A stretch of DNA of 64,000 nucleotides from Oryzias latipes (taxonomy: Eukaryota > Chordata > Actinopteri > Beloniformes > Adrianichthyidae), in the NCBI RefSeq assembly GCF_002234675.1, contig NC_019871.2, positions 27,032,094 to 27,096,093 of the forward strand, in the 5' to 3' direction. Positions 4,398 through 43,745 of the stretch are shown here, in pieces. Under the pieces are notes generated by a model. The model saw only the letters and a list, made by a program, of their open reading frames with translations, was not told the origin of the DNA and made no database searches. The stretch's first letter is position 1. Every line of letters begins with the position of its first letter. The position numbers and the translations under genes were made by a program.

Positions 4398-4648
4398 TTA
4401 GTGACAGACATTGTTTTCTCACACTTCAGGAAAGGTGTTGGTAAGTGCAGCAAGATGCCCACTGTGCATTACAGCTAAAGGCCCGTACACACCGGGACGA
4501 ATATTCGCCAGGCGTTATTCGCCAGCGTTTTTCGCCACGTCTTTTGTGTTCACACCCAGGCGATTTTCGCTGACGATGTCATAGCAGCCCCAGATTTTCC
4601 AGCCTTGACGTTTTTAGTATTGTGTTGGTCTAAATGTTTTTCCTTTAG

Positions 4649-4837
4649 ATCCCTTTGAACATCTGGGTCGTTTTCTACCCTCGCCGAAGTGCTGAACAGG
4701 CAGTCGAGCTCATTTCTACCTTTCACAAAGTGGCTGGTCCTATCGGACTGCGGCTGCAGCGACCAATCACGGTGGAGCTGCGAGACGATCGGACCGAAAC
4801 TTATGTCAAGAGCATCCATTCTCAACTCACCAGTGAG
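4649..4837 (+). pseudogene. Copy of the piwil2 MID-region coding exon inside a MITE composite
   Basis: These 189 bp are an exact-length copy of the piwil2 exon at 29108-29296, with its acceptor (TTTAG) and donor (GTACAG) intact. It would encode 63 residues including [25 protein letters not shown] and [15 protein letters not shown] see one difference in the exon (GTC for GTA, both valine) and two in the preceding intron. No other piwil2 exon lies nearby, so it cannot make a PIWI protein alone. It has the same orientation as the gene. It could only act as a cryptic exon or as a source of piwil2-matching RNA. Confidence 0.9.
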
Positions 4838-4849
4838 GTACAGTGTTAA

Positions 4850-5521
4850 GGCCCGTACACACCGGGACGAATATTCGCCAGGCGTTATTCGCCAGCGTTT
4901 TTTGTGTTCACACCCAGGCGATTTTCGCTGACGATGAGCCGAGCGTGCAACATGCAATTTCATTCCCTGACATTAGATGGCGCTTAATGTAAACAGAAAT
5001 ACTCCTGTACACAAGGTGGCGCTGCACAACTTTACGCTTCTTAAAGTCGCTTTTCACTCAGAAGAAGAGAGCAAGTATTTACGCGCTTGTCAGAATAATA
5101 CAAAGAATACATGAATATTTCAAGCACCAGTAGCTCCAACTGGTGCTTGGTTCGGGGATATTTAAGAATGTCCCTCATTATTTCTTTGCGGCAGTGTAGA
5201 CGCGACTTGGCGTCTATCTTCTTCGCTGGTATGTGTGCTCAGAAAGGCAGTTTTGTGTTTGAGCGCCCCCAAGTTGTGTTTTACTGTAACTTCAGAAGCT
5301 CCAGACACGTGTGCAAAAGCGCCATTCTCATTGGTCGAATAGATTTCGACGCGAGGCGTCAAAAAAAATAAACAAACCCGAGGCGTTTTTTTTTTGACGC
5401 TTTGACGCGTGGCGTTTTTTCGCGTCGGTGTGCACACTCACATTGGTGCCCTTTGTTTAGTCACGAGGCGTTAAACGTCAGCGAAAATCGCCGGCGAAAT
5501 TCGTCCCGGTGTGAACAGGCC
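4850..5521. mobile_element. TTAA-type (piggyBac-like) MITE, full-length copy
   Basis: The 672-bp element is flanked by TTAA on both sides (4846-4849 and 5522-5525). Its inverted ends are about 25 bp, beginning GGCC(C/T)GT(A/T)CACACC, with further sub-terminal inverted stretches around GCGATTTTCGCTGACG. TTAA target duplications are the hallmark of piggyBac-superfamily elements. It has no coding capacity. A second copy is at 29309-29951. Confidence 0.8.
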
Positions 5522-5525
5522 TTAA

Positions 5526-6354
5526 GTCGTCAGACCGATTGTTCTAATGCAATGACTTGACTCCTCATTCATTAGCATCCAATGACAGCCAGGTAGCCCT
5601 TAATACTCCCGCAATAAGGACAAATACAATTTGTAACTTGTTTGTAAATGACCTAAGAATTTGTTTCATTGGTATTAAGATAAATCCTCACTGCCAGGAA
5701 ATCCCATCTCATCCTTTTCCATTCACTTCAAAACAGAAAATTCTATATAATTGAAGTTCTTATAAACAAACACAAAACAAACCACACAGAACCTCAGAAA
5801 GAGTTTTCTGATGGAGGGAATCAGAAAGGATTGATCAGTCTTTCCTTCATTTCTAGCACGTACGACAACAGCCTCCTAAGAGGTCCGTTTTGTCTGAATG
5901 ACTTGACATCAACCAAGTTTGTTGATGATGTTGCTTGACGGTAAATATAATGCACTGTTACATTGTTAAGGACAGCAGTGGACAGTTGAGCAAAAGCATG
6001 ACTGCTGGCTGAATATCAGAATTTGGATTCAAACACGTGCCAGTACAAGACTGGAAGGAAATATGGCATGCGACTTCATCAAAGTGTAGTGTGTCATGCC
6101 CTCCTTTCAATGCAGAAACCAAAAAGAAGCAGAAATTATAGCGCTGCCATATAAGACAGCAGCACTAAAGCTTTAGTTTTGCAAACATGTTGTAAAACAG
6201 ACAGACCATTTTAGATAAATAGTTCACTCATGAACAAATCTGGTATTCATGTTGATTGTAATGCCTTGTGTTTAGTTGTCAAAAGAAGCATTTTTGTTTA
6301 TGTAATCTATGCTTAACAGTTCGTTTTGGAAAATTGTCAAAGTTAGACATCTGT
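5526..6354. other. AT-rich spacer with a decayed tRNA-Leu-region copy
   Basis: No gene is visible. Around 5994-6060 the text CTGGCTGAATATCAGAATTT is a diverged copy of the left flank and 3' end of the tRNA-Leu at 3961-4041. This indicates an old local duplication. The rest shows nothing I can assign. Confidence 0.5.
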
Positions 6355-7265
6355 CGTTTCCGTGATTGACCTTCTTGTCCGTTTGCATAAAGTGGCTTCA
6401 AATAGCAGTGAGGTTATGGAAGCATTCACATCTGAAGATCGTGCAAAAAATCTCAAAGATTTAGATCTCAGTGTGGATCCTCTCCCCATTCAGAGAAGCT
6501 TAGGATTGTGTTGGGATCTACAAACTGATAGCTTCACCTACCTTGTTTCCGGAGAAGTCAAACCCTTCACAAGAAGAGGCGTGCTATCAACGGTCAACTG
6601 TTTATATGACCCACTGGGTTTTGTGGCCCCCATAATCATGCATGGCACTCGTTCGTGATTTGTCATCAGAAGAGAGAGACTGGGAAAGAAGAAATGTGGA
6701 TTTCTTGGAGAAACTCTTTAAAGGCTCCTGGAAATCTCCAGATTCCAAAGTGTTACTGTGCAGTTTCTCCAGGAAAAATGAAAAGAAGAGAACTCTGCAT
6801 TTTTTCTGATTCTTCAGTTGTTGCTATAGGAGCAGCGGCTTACCTTCATTTAGTTGACACTGATGGCAAACATCATGTTGGGTTTGTGATGGGGAAGTCA
6901 AAACTTGCACCCCGGCCTGCATACACTGTACCACGCCTAGAACTGTGTGCCGCTGTCCTTGCAGTTGAAATGTTTGAACTGATCAGAGACCTTCTGGACA
7001 TGGAAGTGGACTGTGTTAGATTTTTCACTGACAGCAGGATTGTGTTAGGCTATATACACAATACCTCAAGAAGATTCTACATGTATGTGGCAACCGTGTC
7101 ACTAGGATCAGAGTATCCACAAAGCCAAATCAATGGCAGTACGTTCCAACTGCATTAAATCCAGCCGACCAAGCGACCCGATCTGTTCGAGTCTCTGAGC
7201 TGCAGGCAAGCATCTGGTTTTCTGGTCCCCCTTTTCTCTACTCTGAACAAATTTCAAAGGCACAC
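6355..7265 (+). mobile_element. BEL/Pao retrotransposon pol fragment (RT end and RNase H), broken
   Basis: The first open stretch (6362-6658) encodes the end of the BEL/Pao reverse transcriptase region, with RSLGLCWDLQTDSFTY and RRGVLSTVNCLYDPLGFVAP. A frameshift near 6655 leads into a second stretch (to 7158). That stretch carries an RNase H-like domain with FSDSSVVAIGAAAYL, VPRLELCAAVLAVE and FFTDSRIVLGYI, supplying the expected D, E and D positions. A further frame change near 7120 leads into NPADQATR-like and SIWFSGPPFLYS text typical of the next part of BEL pol. LTRs, gag, protease and integrase are missing. It is a dead 5'- and 3'-truncated copy next to the L2 element. Confidence 0.85.
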
Positions 7266-7299
7266 CAAGCAAGTGTTTTTTCTTGTTAATATCTTAAAG

Positions 7300-10200
7300 G
7301 TTAAAGGTCCAAGCAATGGCGGCGCGCATGAGTGCAGCAGCCTCTCATGCTCCCGGTACCAACACCGTTTACAGGACTGGTTTCGATGACTATGCTTTGT
7401 TAACAGATTCTATGGTCAGTCTCACCGATACTACCAGCGCTAAGAAGCGCATAAAATACAGCCGGACCGAAATAACGACCATAACGGACAGTCTGGACTC
7501 AAACACAACAACAGCGGGCCCTGGACTCAAGGCCTTACTGGGCAGGCTGCATCTCCTGAGGACACCGAAGTGGCGCAAGGATATTGGCCGAACAGAGAGC
7601 AAGAGGAAGCGGTGTGCACGGACACGTAAGAGGGGCAAACGAGCCGGAGTGCTAGCCAGGCTAAAGGCTAACGCCGGCAGGCCGCCGATCCCGTCTTTGT
7701 TCCTGGCCAACGTCCGCTCCCTGGACAACAAGATGGACATGCTTCGACTGAGGCTGGGGGCTTCCAGTGAGATGAAGAACTCTGCAGTTATTTGTCTAAC
7801 GGAGACCTGGCTGAAAGACAACATGCCGGACCCAGCCTTTCAGCTCGACGGACGGCTTCTGTTCCGGGCGGACCGCAACCAGCAGTCGGGGAAAACCCGC
7901 GGGGGTGGACTGTGTATCTACATCCACAAAGGCTGGTGTACGAACTGCACAGTGGTGAACAGCCACTGCTCCGAGGCGATAGAGCATATGACTGTTAAAT
8001 GCCGGCCACACTATCTGCCTCGTGAGTTTACGGCGGTGTTTATCATGGCTGTTTACATCCCGCCGGGCGCTAACGCTAATGCTAACGAAGCGCTAACGGA
8101 GCTACACAATAACATCAGCTCGCTCCAGCACAGGCACCCGGAGGCTTTTTACGTGATTGCAGGGGACTTCAACCATGTAAACCTGACAGACACTCTGCCC
8201 AAGTTCCACCAGCACATCAACTTTCCAACACGCGGAAATAATATTCTGGACTGTGTCTACACCAACAAAAAAGACGCATACAGAGCTGTCCCCCATCCTC
8301 ATTTGGGCTTTTCAGACCACATAGCCATCATGCTGGCCCCTGTTTACCACCCTCTCCTCAGACGACAAGCACCAACACAGCGGACCATCACAGTGTGGCC
8401 TAGTGAGGCTGCATCAGCTCTGCAAGACTGTTTCCAGCACACAGACTGGCAGATCTTCAGGGAGGCAGCTTCGCATGAGGGGGAGGTGGACCTGGAGGAT
8501 TATGCATCAGGAGTCCTCGGGTACATCAGTAAGTGCACGGAGGATGTCACCAGCACCAGGACTGTAACGGACTACCCCAACCAGAAACCCTGGCTGAACA
8601 CAGAGGTGCGGGCTCTGCTGAAACACAGGAATGCTGCGTTCCAGTCAGGTGACAAGGTGGCACTCAGAGCAGCAAGAAGGGAGCTGCATGCTGGGGTGAG
8701 GAGGGCCAAGGCCGCCTATGCTCAGAGGATTCAGGGACACTTTACGTCGAATGACCCTCGGAGTATGTGGAAGGGCATTAAGTGCATCACAGATTACAAC
8801 ACCAGAGATGCACAATGTCCTGAGGACCCCTCTCTACCAGACGCACTCAACCTCTTCTACTCCCGCTTTGAGGACTCCAACACCGCCCCTCCCAGCACCA
8901 AACTCACCATCCCACCTGGCGAAGAGCCTTTCAGTGTGACGCCCGCTGAGGTGAGGAGGACCCTCCAGAGGATCAACCCTCACAAAGCCGCTGGACCCGA
9001 CAACATCCCTGGACGGGTGCTGAAGGACTGTGCACACCAGCTCACAGAGGTGCTGACAGACATCTTCAACACCTCCCTGATGCAGGCAGTGGTCCCCACC
9101 TGCCTGAAAACCGCCACCATCATTCCAATACCCAAATCATCCACAGTGACAAGTCTGAATGACTATCGGCCGGTTGCCCTGACACCGATAGTCATGAAAT
9201 GTTTCGAAAAACTGGTCATGACCCGCATCACAGAATCCATCGACATCACCAAGGACCTGCACCAATACGCATACAGGTCAAACCGATCCACAGAGGACGC
9301 CATCTCCTCTGTGGTCCACACAACCCTCACCCACCTAGAGAACAAGAACGCGTACGTTCGACTGCTCTTCGTGGACTTCACATCAGCTTTTAACACCATC
9401 ATCCCGCAGACCCTCACCCAGAAACTACACACACTTGGACTGAACCCCACTCTGTGCAACTGGGTCTTGGACTTCCTGACAGACAGACCGCAGTCTGTAA
9501 AAATCCGCAACGTCTCCTCCTCCCCGATCACCCTCAGCACGGGCTCCCCCCAGGGCTGTGTGCTGAGCCCCCTCCTGTTCACCCTGCTCACGCACGACTG
9601 CACAGCGAGTCACCCCAGCTGTCTGATCGTGAAGTTTGCGGATGACACAGCTGTGGTTGGACGCATCTCCAACAACGATGAGTCTGACTACAGGCAGGAG
9701 GTGGAACATCTGGAGAGCTGGTGCAGAGACAACAACCTCTGCATCAATGGGAAGAAGACCAAGGAGATGATCGTGGATTTTAGGAAGGACAGATGCCCCC
9801 CTCCCCCCATTCACATCGGAGGGGACGCGGTGGAAGTGGTTTCCAGCTTCAGGTATCTGGGCGTGCACATCTCCAGCGACCTCACCTGGAGCACCAACAC
9901 CTCCTGCCTGGTCAAGAAGGCACACCAGCGCCTTTATTTCCTGAGGAGGCTCAAGCGAGCTGGGATGGGGATCCCAGTCCTGACCTCCTTCTACAGGTGT
10001 GTGGTGGAGAGCGTCATGACCTCCTGCATCACGGTGTGGCACGGCAGCTGCTCTGCGGCAGAGAGGAAAGCTCTGCAACGAGTGACCAAAGCTGCACAGA
10101 GGACTGTGGGCTGCAGCCTGCCGTCCACCACTGACATCTATACGACCAGATGCAGGAAACGGGCCTCTCGCATCCTGAAAGACCCCACCCACCCCTCACA

Positions 10201-10598
10201 CCCTCTGTTCTCCCTGCTCCCCTCAGGCAGGAGGCTGAGGAGCATAAAGAGCAGGACCACCAGACTGAGGAACAGTTTCTTTCCTGAAGCAGTCAGACTG
10301 CTTAACTCCGGTTGATCACTGCACCCCCCCCCCCCCCTCTATGGACAACAAGCTAATTCCCAAGTGCAATATCACAGGGCTGTGCAATACTTAACATAAA
10401 ATACTGTGCAATTTGAAAAATACTTCTGTGCAATACTCATCAGGAACCACACCATAACAGACTGATATTTTACTGACATTATTATTGATATATATTATTT
10501 ATGTCTGAATGTAAACGGCTGGCCCGGGACCAGAGAGCCTAATTTCGTTTTATCATGATAAAATGACAATAAAGTTTTCCTGATTCCTGATTCCTGAT
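7300..10598 (+). mobile_element. L2-like LINE, near full length
   Basis: The element comprises the open reading frame, a 3' UTR (10316-10598) with a 14-base C run at about 10325, and a tail of tandem ATTCCTG units after ATGACAATAAAG. Replication ends in short tandem repeats rather than poly(A) are characteristic of the L2/CR1/Rex1 lineages. The 5' boundary is a guess. The element directly follows the BEL/Pao fragment, with no clear target duplication. A related but broken element is at 40015-41330. Confidence 0.8.
7316..10315 (+). CDS. L2-type LINE ORF: endonuclease and reverse transcriptase, intact
   Basis: This 999-residue frame encodes a complete non-LTR retrotransposon polyprotein. Residues about 85-115 are rich in Lys/Arg. 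An APE-type endonuclease occupies about 125-335 (NVRSLDNK, CLTETWL, GGGLCIYI, AGDFNHVNL, LGFSDH). The reverse transcriptase occupies about 550-850 (NDYRPVALTPIV, LFVDFTSAFNTI, STGSPQGCVLSPLL and the catalytic FADD at about 774). The C-terminal part keeps the fish L2-like segment SCSAAERKALQRV. No stop or frameshift interrupts it, so the copy may be young. Start choice is uncertain because further ATGs follow closely. The 3' UTR ends in AATAAAG and a short ATTCCTG repeat, as in the L2/CR1 group. Confidence 0.93.
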   Translation: MAARMSAAASHAPGTNTVYRTGFDDYALLTDSMVSLTDTTSAKKRIKYSRTEITTITDSLDSNTTTAGPGLKALLGRLHLLRTPKWRKDIGRTESKRKRCARTRKRGKRAGVLARLKANAGRPPIPSLFLANVRSLDNKMDMLRLRLGASSEMKNSAVICLTETWLKDNMPDPAFQLDGRLLFRADRNQQSGKTRGGGLCIYIHKGWCTNCTVVNSHCSEAIEHMTVKCRPHYLPREFTAVFIMAVYIPPGANANANEALTELHNNISSLQHRHPEAFYVIAGDFNHVNLTDTLPKFHQHINFPTRGNNILDCVYTNKKDAYRAVPHPHLGFSDHIAIMLAPVYHPLLRRQAPTQRTITVWPSEAASALQDCFQHTDWQIFREAASHEGEVDLEDYASGVLGYISKCTEDVTSTRTVTDYPNQKPWLNTEVRALLKHRNAAFQSGDKVALRAARRELHAGVRRAKAAYAQRIQGHFTSNDPRSMWKGIKCITDYNTRDAQCPEDPSLPDALNLFYSRFEDSNTAPPSTKLTIPPGEEPFSVTPAEVRRTLQRINPHKAAGPDNIPGRVLKDCAHQLTEVLTDIFNTSLMQAVVPTCLKTATIIPIPKSSTVTSLNDYRPVALTPIVMKCFEKLVMTRITESIDITKDLHQYAYRSNRSTEDAISSVVHTTLTHLENKNAYVRLLFVDFTSAFNTIIPQTLTQKLHTLGLNPTLCNWVLDFLTDRPQSVKIRNVSSSPITLSTGSPQGCVLSPLLFTLLTHDCTASHPSCLIVKFADDTAVVGRISNNDESDYRQEVEHLESWCRDNNLCINGKKTKEMIVDFRKDRCPPPPIHIGGDAVEVVSSFRYLGVHISSDLTWSTNTSCLVKKAHQRLYFLRRLKRAGMGIPVLTSFYRCVVESVMTSCITVWHGSCSAAERKALQRVTKAAQRTVGCSLPSTTDIYTTRCRKRASRILKDPTHPSHPLFSLLPSGRRLRSIKSRTTRLRNSFFPEAVRLLNSG

Positions 10599-14038: not shown

Positions 14039-37530
<23,492 letters not shown>

Positions 37531-41330: not shown

Positions 41331-42627
41331 ACGAACAGAAAACACTCAAAAGTATAAAAAAAAAAAACATTACGGCCACAACCGTGACAGACATATTTTA
41401 AAATCCACGTAGTTAATATTTTCTAGTGTCAAGCCTTAAATTATGATTTTGTTTGTAATTGACTGCATGTCCTCTGATCTTATGACCATATTGTTTGTGT
41501 GACATCCACAAAAAGGAAACCTCTTGTCCTCTCCTGAACTCTTGTGGACAAAATGGGTTAGTACATCCACAATGGTTTGGTGTGAGAAATTGTTTGGACA
41601 AAAGTAGCTCAGAAAACACAGAATGTGGTTAAGTACACCGGCAGAACCCAGAATAGAAAAAGAATAGCATATTGATGGCTTAAATGAAAATGTGATGTTT
41701 AACCTCTTTAACTGCCTGCTCAACCAAACGGTTGAGCAAACTTTGACTCACCATATTTTTATTAGAGAAGTTTCTAACTTAACTCAAACTGATTTAGCCA
41801 TCTCAACCAATTGGTAGAAGCATGCAAAGCTAAAGAAAACCAACAGATGGCACTGTGTCAGTCAGTAGTTGCTTGCCTGACTTCTTTGACTGACAAGCAA
41901 GTCACAACTTGAAAATGATCATACACACTTTCTTACCTTTTATGAAAATTTGAAAGGTAGGAATATTTTTCTTACTTGGTATTACTAGTAAAGGTGTTAA
42001 TCAACTGATATATGTTCCTAGATAAACAAAAATAAACAAATTTCTGTTTGTGATAATTTTTTTAAAACATGCTCTACCAAATGGTTGATTTGTCACTTTA
42101 TGGTATAAGTAGCAAAATCAAGCCAATGTTAAATAAAGGGACTGTTTGTCATAAAATCAGTTAAAACAACCTTCTAAATCATCCATTACTAAAGAAATAC
42201 TCATTATCATAAATAATTTAAAATGCATACTACTGTTAAGTTTTGTCTATTTTTGAGTTTATATCAGCTGGTGTGTAAATAAATAAAATATCAAGATTAT
42301 TACACCCAATTCACTTAAAACTAAACAAAAAAAGCTGCAATAATAATATTACCAACATTTACAAAAGTTTTCTATCATTTTCTTTTGTTTTACAACTAGT
42401 AGATAGATACTAAAACATTCTACAGTGCTAGACCACGACAAAGTCCACATGACTCAGATGCAGATCTGTATGACAGTGATGATGACCTAACAGATCCTGA
42501 TTATCAATCCACACATGCAAAGGGCATTGGTGACGGTTCTTTTGAATCCCTGGATGTAGAAGAATCTCTTTCAACAAGCAGATCATCTACACTGCCACCT
42601 CATAAGAAGAACTGAAAACGCAAAAAC

Positions 42628-43745
42628 ATGCCATTCTACCCCACTAAGAATAGCCTGTCTCCTCCAATTTTGTTGGAGGAGACAGGCTATTCTCCTGACT
42701 CAATATACCCCTCCAACCCAAGCAAAACCACAAGAAGAATATGGAAGCATGAGGACATTGAAGAATTCAAGGTTCCAGAATCAAGATTTGAGCCTCCTGA
42801 GGATGTACACACACCCTTCCAATACTTCAAAATGCTTTTCAGTGATGAAATGATTGAGCATATTGCCTATCATACAAATCTTTATTCTGCTCAGATGTTG
42901 GGAGATCCTACAAAGACAAGTTCTGAAGAAATTGAGGATTTCTTAGCAATTCTTCTATATTTGGGTGTTTTCACCTTCCTATCGCAGGCGGACAACTGGC
43001 ACAGATATATAGATTTTTGTGATAAGTAGCACATCAACAATAGTACAGACCAATTTCACAAAATTTGACAGCAAATGATTCAACATGCTTAGCAATGCTT
43101 TTGGGATCATGCCTCTTTCAACAGTCAGGCGGTGGAGTAAAAAGTCAAAAGAGTTCATCACATGCCAATAACTGATCCCTGCTAAATAGATCTCTTTGAT
43201 ATGCTGGTGCACCTGTACAAGACCTGTACAGCTAAATTTAGGTGACGGTACAGTCCCCTGTTTGGATACATCATTGACTTGTGTATCACTAATTCCTGGC
43301 TGGTTTACAAGAGGGACCTACTGAAGCAAAAACCAGTGTTACTCAAAAGGTTCCGCCTGGCTGTTGCACACAGTTTAAATAAGATCAACAAGCAAGCAAC
43401 CAAAGTTGGCTGACTATCATTGAGCTCTCTACCACAGATGTGGAAAGGCCACACACCAAGACCATCACAACCAAAACAACAGTGTGCACTACGACAACAT
43501 GGTACGGCGCCTCTTCATTCTGACAAGCTGGGACGATGAAACCTCGGTCCAAATAGGTCAAGATGTCAGAAATATGTTTTTCTGTGTTTCAATCCAAACC
43601 AAGAATGCTTTATGAAATACCATCAAAAGTGAGTCAGAGGTGTAGTGTCAAACAACTTCCAGGAAATATAGGTCAAAATTTGCTTTGTTTTAAAAAAGTT
43701 CAATGTTTGAGGCATGATAAAAAGAATGGAGACAAATGCCCTTAA
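42628..43745 (+). pseudogene. piggyBac transposase pseudogene
   Basis: An open stretch (42628-43029) encodes RRIWKHEDIEEFKVPESRF, PFQYFKMLFSDEMIEHIAYH and EEIEDFLAILLYLGVF, matching the start of piggyBac-derived (PGBD-type) transposases. Acidic text DSDADLYDSDDDL-like lies upstream at 42450-42490. After a stop at 43027 the match resumes in broken frames, such as LFGYIIDLCITNSWLVYKR at about 43255-43315, and a C-terminal cysteine-containing remnant runs to about 43745. Several stops make it non-functional. Confidence 0.82.
42647..42693. repeat. Perfect 21-bp inverted repeat (hairpin) in the transposase frame
   Basis: Arms 42647-42667 and 42673-42693 are exact reverse complements with a 5-base TTTTG loop. 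Each arm starts or ends in AGAATAGCC or its complement. The palindrome does not disrupt the open frame around it. Confidence 0.95.

Follow-up and report, generated by a model that had tools for sequence, protein, structure and literature searches.

A medaka PIF/Harbinger MITE, found once, that carries a copied exon of piwil2

How does a near-identical exon of piwil2, a transposon-silencing gene, come to lie inside a transposable element some 24 kb from the original exon? The locus that raises this question lies in Oryzias latipes, in the 64-kb stretch of DNA analysed here (64,000 nucleotides of contig NC_019871.2; the window). The best explanation that we can offer takes the composite for a non-autonomous MITE of PIF/Harbinger type, of which one was found, that gained its piwil2 exon by copying. 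Positions 4479-5522 of the window consist of a 100-bp MITE left end, an intron-exon-intron piece of piwil2 and a complete MITE, with the host gene fragment thus present inside the terminal inverted repeats (TIRs). The parts are as follows.

4476..4478, + strand: left target-site duplication of the composite, TAA, read from the sequence
4479..4578, + strand: outer-left MITE end of about 100 bp, from another subfamily, identical to the left ends of L010, L015 and L016
4577..4578, + strand: TG overlap (microhomology) where the MITE end meets the piwil2 intron, from the sequence of both loci and BLAST
4577..4648, + strand: copied piwil2 intron with splice acceptor, differing from 29036-29107 at 2 of 72 bases
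4649..4837, + strand: copied piwil2 exon of 63 codons, with one silent difference in 189 bases and 100% identity to residues 662-724 of medaka piwi-like 2 (P0001)
4838..4848, + strand: donor splice site, also copied, followed by the genic MITE's TTA target copy, identical to 29297-29307
4849..5522, + strand: complete MITE, whose source up to 5374 at least is the piwil2-intron MITE, judging from derived changes in common and a tree
4977..5108, + strand: remnant of a Harbinger transposase start within the MITE (tblastn of P0124, residues 1-45, 64%)
5523..5525, + strand: right target-site duplication of the composite, TAA, read from the sequence

The corresponding features of the gene are these.

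14060..37527, + strand: piwil2 coding region, start codon to last exon (tblastn of P0001)
29036..29307, + strand: source piece, with its exon at 29108-29296 (BLAST, alignment)
29308..29951, + strand: MITE in a piwil2 intron, with TTA duplications at 29305-29307 and 29952-29954 (sequence)
29436..29513: Harbinger transposase remnant in the genic MITE, 96% identical to residues 1-26 of P0124

The closest match to the gene is piwi-like 2 of Oryzias latipes, at 93% for a rough joined model, followed by that of O. melastigma at 85%, and the peptide of the exon matches PIWIL2 structures. With P0001 as the tblastn query, 12 of the 18 matched gene stretches are at 94-100% identity, and the other six, at 57-71%, appear to overrun introns or exon edges. 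The window has other repetitive content: a tandem array with a 54-bp period occupies positions 1-1153 (self-BLAST shifts of 54 bases at 96-100% identity), a Pao retrotransposon fragment (6347-7158) and a long LINE-like reverse transcriptase open reading frame (7298-10315) lie between the composite and piwil2, and a fragment matching PF13843, which we take to be a piggyBac-type transposase, is situated downstream of piwil2 at 42616-43029 (E 4e-10).

The piece at 4577-4848 is a copy of 29036-29307, and the resemblance runs on into the adjoining MITE. BLAST aligns 4577-5475 to 29036-29928 at 97% over 900 columns, and the full alignment of 4577-5525 to 29036-29954 contains 21 substitutions among 918 aligned bases and three indels, one of the 21 substitutions sitting in the target duplication. 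The exon copy differs from 29108-29296 at one of its 189 positions, 4669, a GTC/GTA change that is silent. An earlier note on this DNA had described a near-identical exon, matching intron flanks, an adjacent MITE duplicated along with it, and a 2-bp overlap at the left fusion, and all of these hold: the upstream intron has two differences in 72 bases, at 4630 and 4636, the segment after the exon is identical, and the overlap is the TG at 4577-4578. In a simple model a microhomology of at least 2 bp is expected at about 0.16 of random joints. By the same note, a large segmental duplication reaching past the MITE ends would have refuted its reading. Homology between the two loci stops there and the outer flanks are unrelated, and a larger segmental duplication is ruled out by both BLAST and alignment. 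That the composite is an artefact of assembly was an explicit concern of that note, as near-identical pieces lie 24 kb apart; we find it hardly credible for two copies that differ by 21 substitutions and three indels, stand in unrelated flanks and belong to one contig.

The sequence does not support the TTAA, piggyBac type that had been assigned to the element. Target duplications of 3 bp flank both MITEs, TAA in the composite (4476-4478 and 5523-5525) and TTA in the genic MITE (29305-29307 and 29952-29954), and the family derives from PIF/Harbinger. A TTAA duplication was considered and rejected: the outer-left flank reads CTAA before AGGCCC, and a 3-bp TWA fits both elements. Perfect 3-bp duplications occur in 31 of 38 other copies (19 TTA, 10 TAA, one TTT and one TGA), these 38 being the 40 scored places of a search with 2280 initial candidates, minus the composite and the genic MITE; mispaired ends of the family agree in 3 bp in 582 of 1406 cases (41%). 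The target duplication of PIF/Harbinger elements is 3 bp, usually TAA for mPing, according to the available text of PMC2836001. The left and right ends of the MITE match as TIRs over about 60 bp, mostly at 80-84%, and the exact 30-base left end has 1761 matches in the genome (881 forward, 880 reverse).

The coding remnants within the family belong to the O. latipes protein P0124, whose DDE domain is that of Harbinger (DDE_Tnp_4, PF13359); the MITE encodes the start of this protein (tblastn: residues 1-26 at 96% in 29436-29513, residues 1-45 at 64% in 4977-5108). In longer relatives the same left end stands before a Harbinger transposase: nine of ten fetched transposase loci also hold it and one, L050, does not, the ten including two overlapping pairs (L043 with L051, L045 with L052), and L010, a longer relative of the MITE, has a transposase piece 90% identical to P0124. 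In the flanks fetched with these loci no MITE right end could be found downstream of the transposase, Pfam returned 0 families for a 56-residue transposase fragment, and the TIR pattern had 0 matches in viral_contigs and genome_contigs. The family is best read, on these sequence relationships, as an internal-deletion derivative of a medaka PIF/Harbinger element. One relative, the 852-bp L010:2720-3571 with matching TAA flanks and a broken transposase piece, is an apparent intermediate between the transposase-bearing element and the MITE. Its transposase fragment is 88% identical to P0125 of Carassius gibelio, while the match in Salarias fasciatus is at 54%; a possible reading is that the Harbinger transposon has moved horizontally between distant fishes.

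Two different MITEs have contributed to the composite. A TGC insertion at 4946-4948, T5108 and A5374 are common to the composite and genic MITEs and each is present in 0 of the 38 other copies; T5369 is likewise common to the two and occurs in three of the 38. Because derived changes held by both are absent from the 38 other copies, the variants indicate that the composite's MITE is copied from the piwil2-intron MITE at least to 5374. The two also have in common a 12-bp deletion at 4895, to which we give little weight because L028 and L037 carry the same one; three more copies have an overlapping gap. In a tree of 40 rows the composite and genic MITEs are sisters at 88/81, a value that the tool does not rank as strong support, and the bootstrap of this tree had yet to settle. 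Their tip branches are 0.013 and 0.019, the median end branch being 0.012, and the copying would thus date to about the time when the MITE family was spreading. The outer-left end has another origin. Its 100 bp differ from the composite's own inner-left end at 13 positions, 12 of them a single gap (BLAST of 4478-4578 against the inner-left end gives one 12-bp gap and zero mismatches), and since they have no differences from L010, L015 and L016 we assign this end to another subfamily.

The genome, searched over 734 Mb in 25 contigs (the window is on contig C13), contains the piwil2 piece twice. The 271-base piece gave two candidates and two matches, the composite and the gene, and with the composite as the query the piece was covered at only two of the 40 scored places, again the composite and the gene. 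The check for further composites that the earlier note had called for was thus run, and these searches found no more than one; with the piwil2 piece present nowhere but there and in the gene, the composite has apparently not amplified. BLAST and alignment found no copies of the MITE in the 64-kb window besides the composite and genic ones, and neither these nor the sequence itself reveals a second MITE upstream of the genic exon at the piwil2 locus.

The origin that we favour, at about an even chance, is template switching during repair of a broken MITE resident at a TAA site. A MITE of the L010/L015/L016 subfamily would have been resident at the TAA at 4476 and would have suffered a break there, perhaps through excision by transposase or in the course of replication. 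Synthesis during repair would have copied the first 100 bp of this resident and then, at the TG match of 2 bp, turned to the piwil2 intron, 24.5 kb away, as its template, continuing through the exon and into the intronic MITE for at least 526 bp; closure would then have come from annealing to homologous MITE sequence towards the right end, with the donor gene left intact. The order of these events, the break and the repair pathway are what we infer. We favour this route because one event suffices and the donor stays intact, and it is supported by the presence of two subfamilies in one element (an outer-left end of the L010/L015/L016 type and an inner MITE of the genic type), by the single 2-bp microhomology joint, and by the finding of one composite and no detectable MITE remnant upstream of the genic exon.

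Several observations weigh against the repair route. Repair-mediated duplications of the proximal class have donors less than 5 kb away and a length of at most 619 bp in the available text of PMC2671141, and with a donor at 24.5 kb and no less than 798 bp of copied sequence the composite exceeds both limits. Beyond 5374 nothing marks the right tip as coming from a resident element: A5517 agrees with eight of eight copies of the L010 subfamily clade and also with 23 of 38 overall. At 5164, 5187 and 5243, between the sites in common, the composite and genic MITEs carry different family-polymorphic alleles, and later conversion or recurrent mutation is needed to account for them. Chance alone would also give a 2-bp joint in about 16% of cases. 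We tried and rejected a single return to a resident MITE near 5018 (change-point permutation p 0.10). Window scans for a switch gave p just under 0.05 in two of three cases and 0.09 in the third, and a single switch before 5374 is argued against because T5108 and A5374 are shared and derived; several switches or later conversion may be involved. Faster evolution of the MITE part than of the piwil2 part was likewise rejected (18 of 647 versus 3 of 271 positions, Fisher p 0.15).

The principal alternative, to which we give a lower but still serious probability, is transposition as a unit in the manner of Pack-TYPE elements, with two MITEs once flanking the piwil2 exon. Loss of the inner end and most of the upstream MITE by deletion would have fused the two; transposase would then have carried the product 24 kb upstream, where a new TAA duplication would have arisen, and the sister or homologous chromosome would have served to restore the donor. 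The matching TAA outside intact outer ends speaks for this, same-strand MITEs flank host DNA elsewhere in the family (L053, with about 460 bp between), and fusion of neighbouring insertions is the model for Pack-TYPE elements, including maize PIF, in the available text of PMC8903248. The TAA match is weak, however, since 582 of 1406 mispaired family ends agree as well, and several steps are needed. The earlier note had similarly proposed mobilisation and reinsertion of MITE and exon as one unit, and against both accounts stand the single copy found and a gene with no detectable trace of an upstream MITE, to which the outer-left end of a different subfamily is added in the case of the note's reading. 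The bolder form of the idea, in which a founding vertebrate Pack-Harbinger MITE assembled beside piwil2, jumped whole to the TAA at 4476 and, both of its termini being intact, might still be mobile under the medaka Harbinger transposase and take its splice-competent exon along, we consider somewhat doubtful. Local clustering of the family is seen on contig C1, where complete or almost complete MITEs stand on the same strand in pairs and one triplet, a few bases to about 460 bp apart (L053-L055). No second capture of host DNA was found in three same-strand clusters within 3 kb, chosen by eye among the matches listed (contig C1 and part of C2).

A rearrangement of another kind, for instance one in which replication duplicated exon and MITE next to a truncated MITE end and the TAA match is fortuitous, would also account for a joint with only 2 bp of microhomology, the kind met in roughly 16% of random joints, and for a target-site match that is weak by itself. 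We regard it as unlikely, because on the right the copied piece stops precisely at a MITE end with TAA after it, and because on the outer left a complete terminus has TAA in front of it.

The exon copy keeps its acceptor, its donor and its 63-codon frame, in the orientation of piwil2. These intact splice sites and frame would fit a functional element, either as a source of piRNAs or antisense RNA directed at piwil2 or through splicing of the exon into transcripts; we nevertheless think such a role very improbable. With about 9 kb between the composite and the piwil2 start codon downstream of it (14060), splicing into piwil2 would need transcription from upstream, and proteins of 35-110 residues that contain the exon are at 73-85% identity in 3 of 3 candidates and so do not come from the composite copy. 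One silent difference is too few for a selection test, and the copy is probably inert. The composite as a whole looks like a one-off copying accident of DNA repair, not a working device; that the captured exon comes from a transposon-silencing gene is striking, and relevance is not implied by this analysis.

The locus offers a base-resolved vertebrate case in which a DNA transposon family gains a complete exon with its splice sites while the donor persists 24 kb away. As the two source MITEs can be distinguished by variants, repair template switching and the fusion of neighbouring insertions make different predictions, which are testable in medaka populations.

Among known systems, the piwil1 duplications of Lake Malawi cichlids resemble the medaka composite in that a fish piwi gene is duplicated with a DNA transposon, although in the available text of PMC11753138 that transposon is PiggyBac, with TTAA, and the copies are full-length or PIWI-domain copies of piwil1, whereas medaka has one piwil2 exon in a Harbinger MITE. 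Turmoil-1 of C. elegans is, like the composite, a Harbinger element in an animal that has taken up coding gene fragments, but as described in the available text of PMC2572040 it is a 5-kb element with a transposase and carries its fragments in long ITRs, and is not a MITE. Pack-TYPE elements of plants, such as Pack-PIF of maize (in the accessible part of PMC8903248), similarly hold a gene fragment between non-autonomous TIRs of PIF/Harbinger type with an outer 3-bp duplication; the medaka composite differs in being vertebrate, and in being one copy found, which may not have moved as a unit. A partial and mainly open literature on DNA-transposon exon capture, Harbinger MITEs, medaka and piwil2 yielded no vertebrate capture of an exon by Harbinger.

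The closest comparison is with the repair-mediated capture of DNA into vertebrate transposable elements, exons included, at microhomologies of 2-9 nt (Pace et al. 2009, PMC2671141). The accessible part of that study counts 80 such duplications in zebrafish and includes captured exons in human. As there, nearby chromosomal DNA that includes an exon with its splice sites has been copied into a transposable element with microhomology, the duplicate interrupting the element at the 2-bp TG overlap. The composite departs from those duplications in that its donor is 24.5 kb away and its tract 798 bp long or more, outside the class of less than 5 kb and at most 619 bp, and in that a copy of the same MITE forms one end of the source. 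The kind of event is thus already known, and to it the medaka composite adds a vertebrate capture of a single exon by a Harbinger MITE, next to piwil2.
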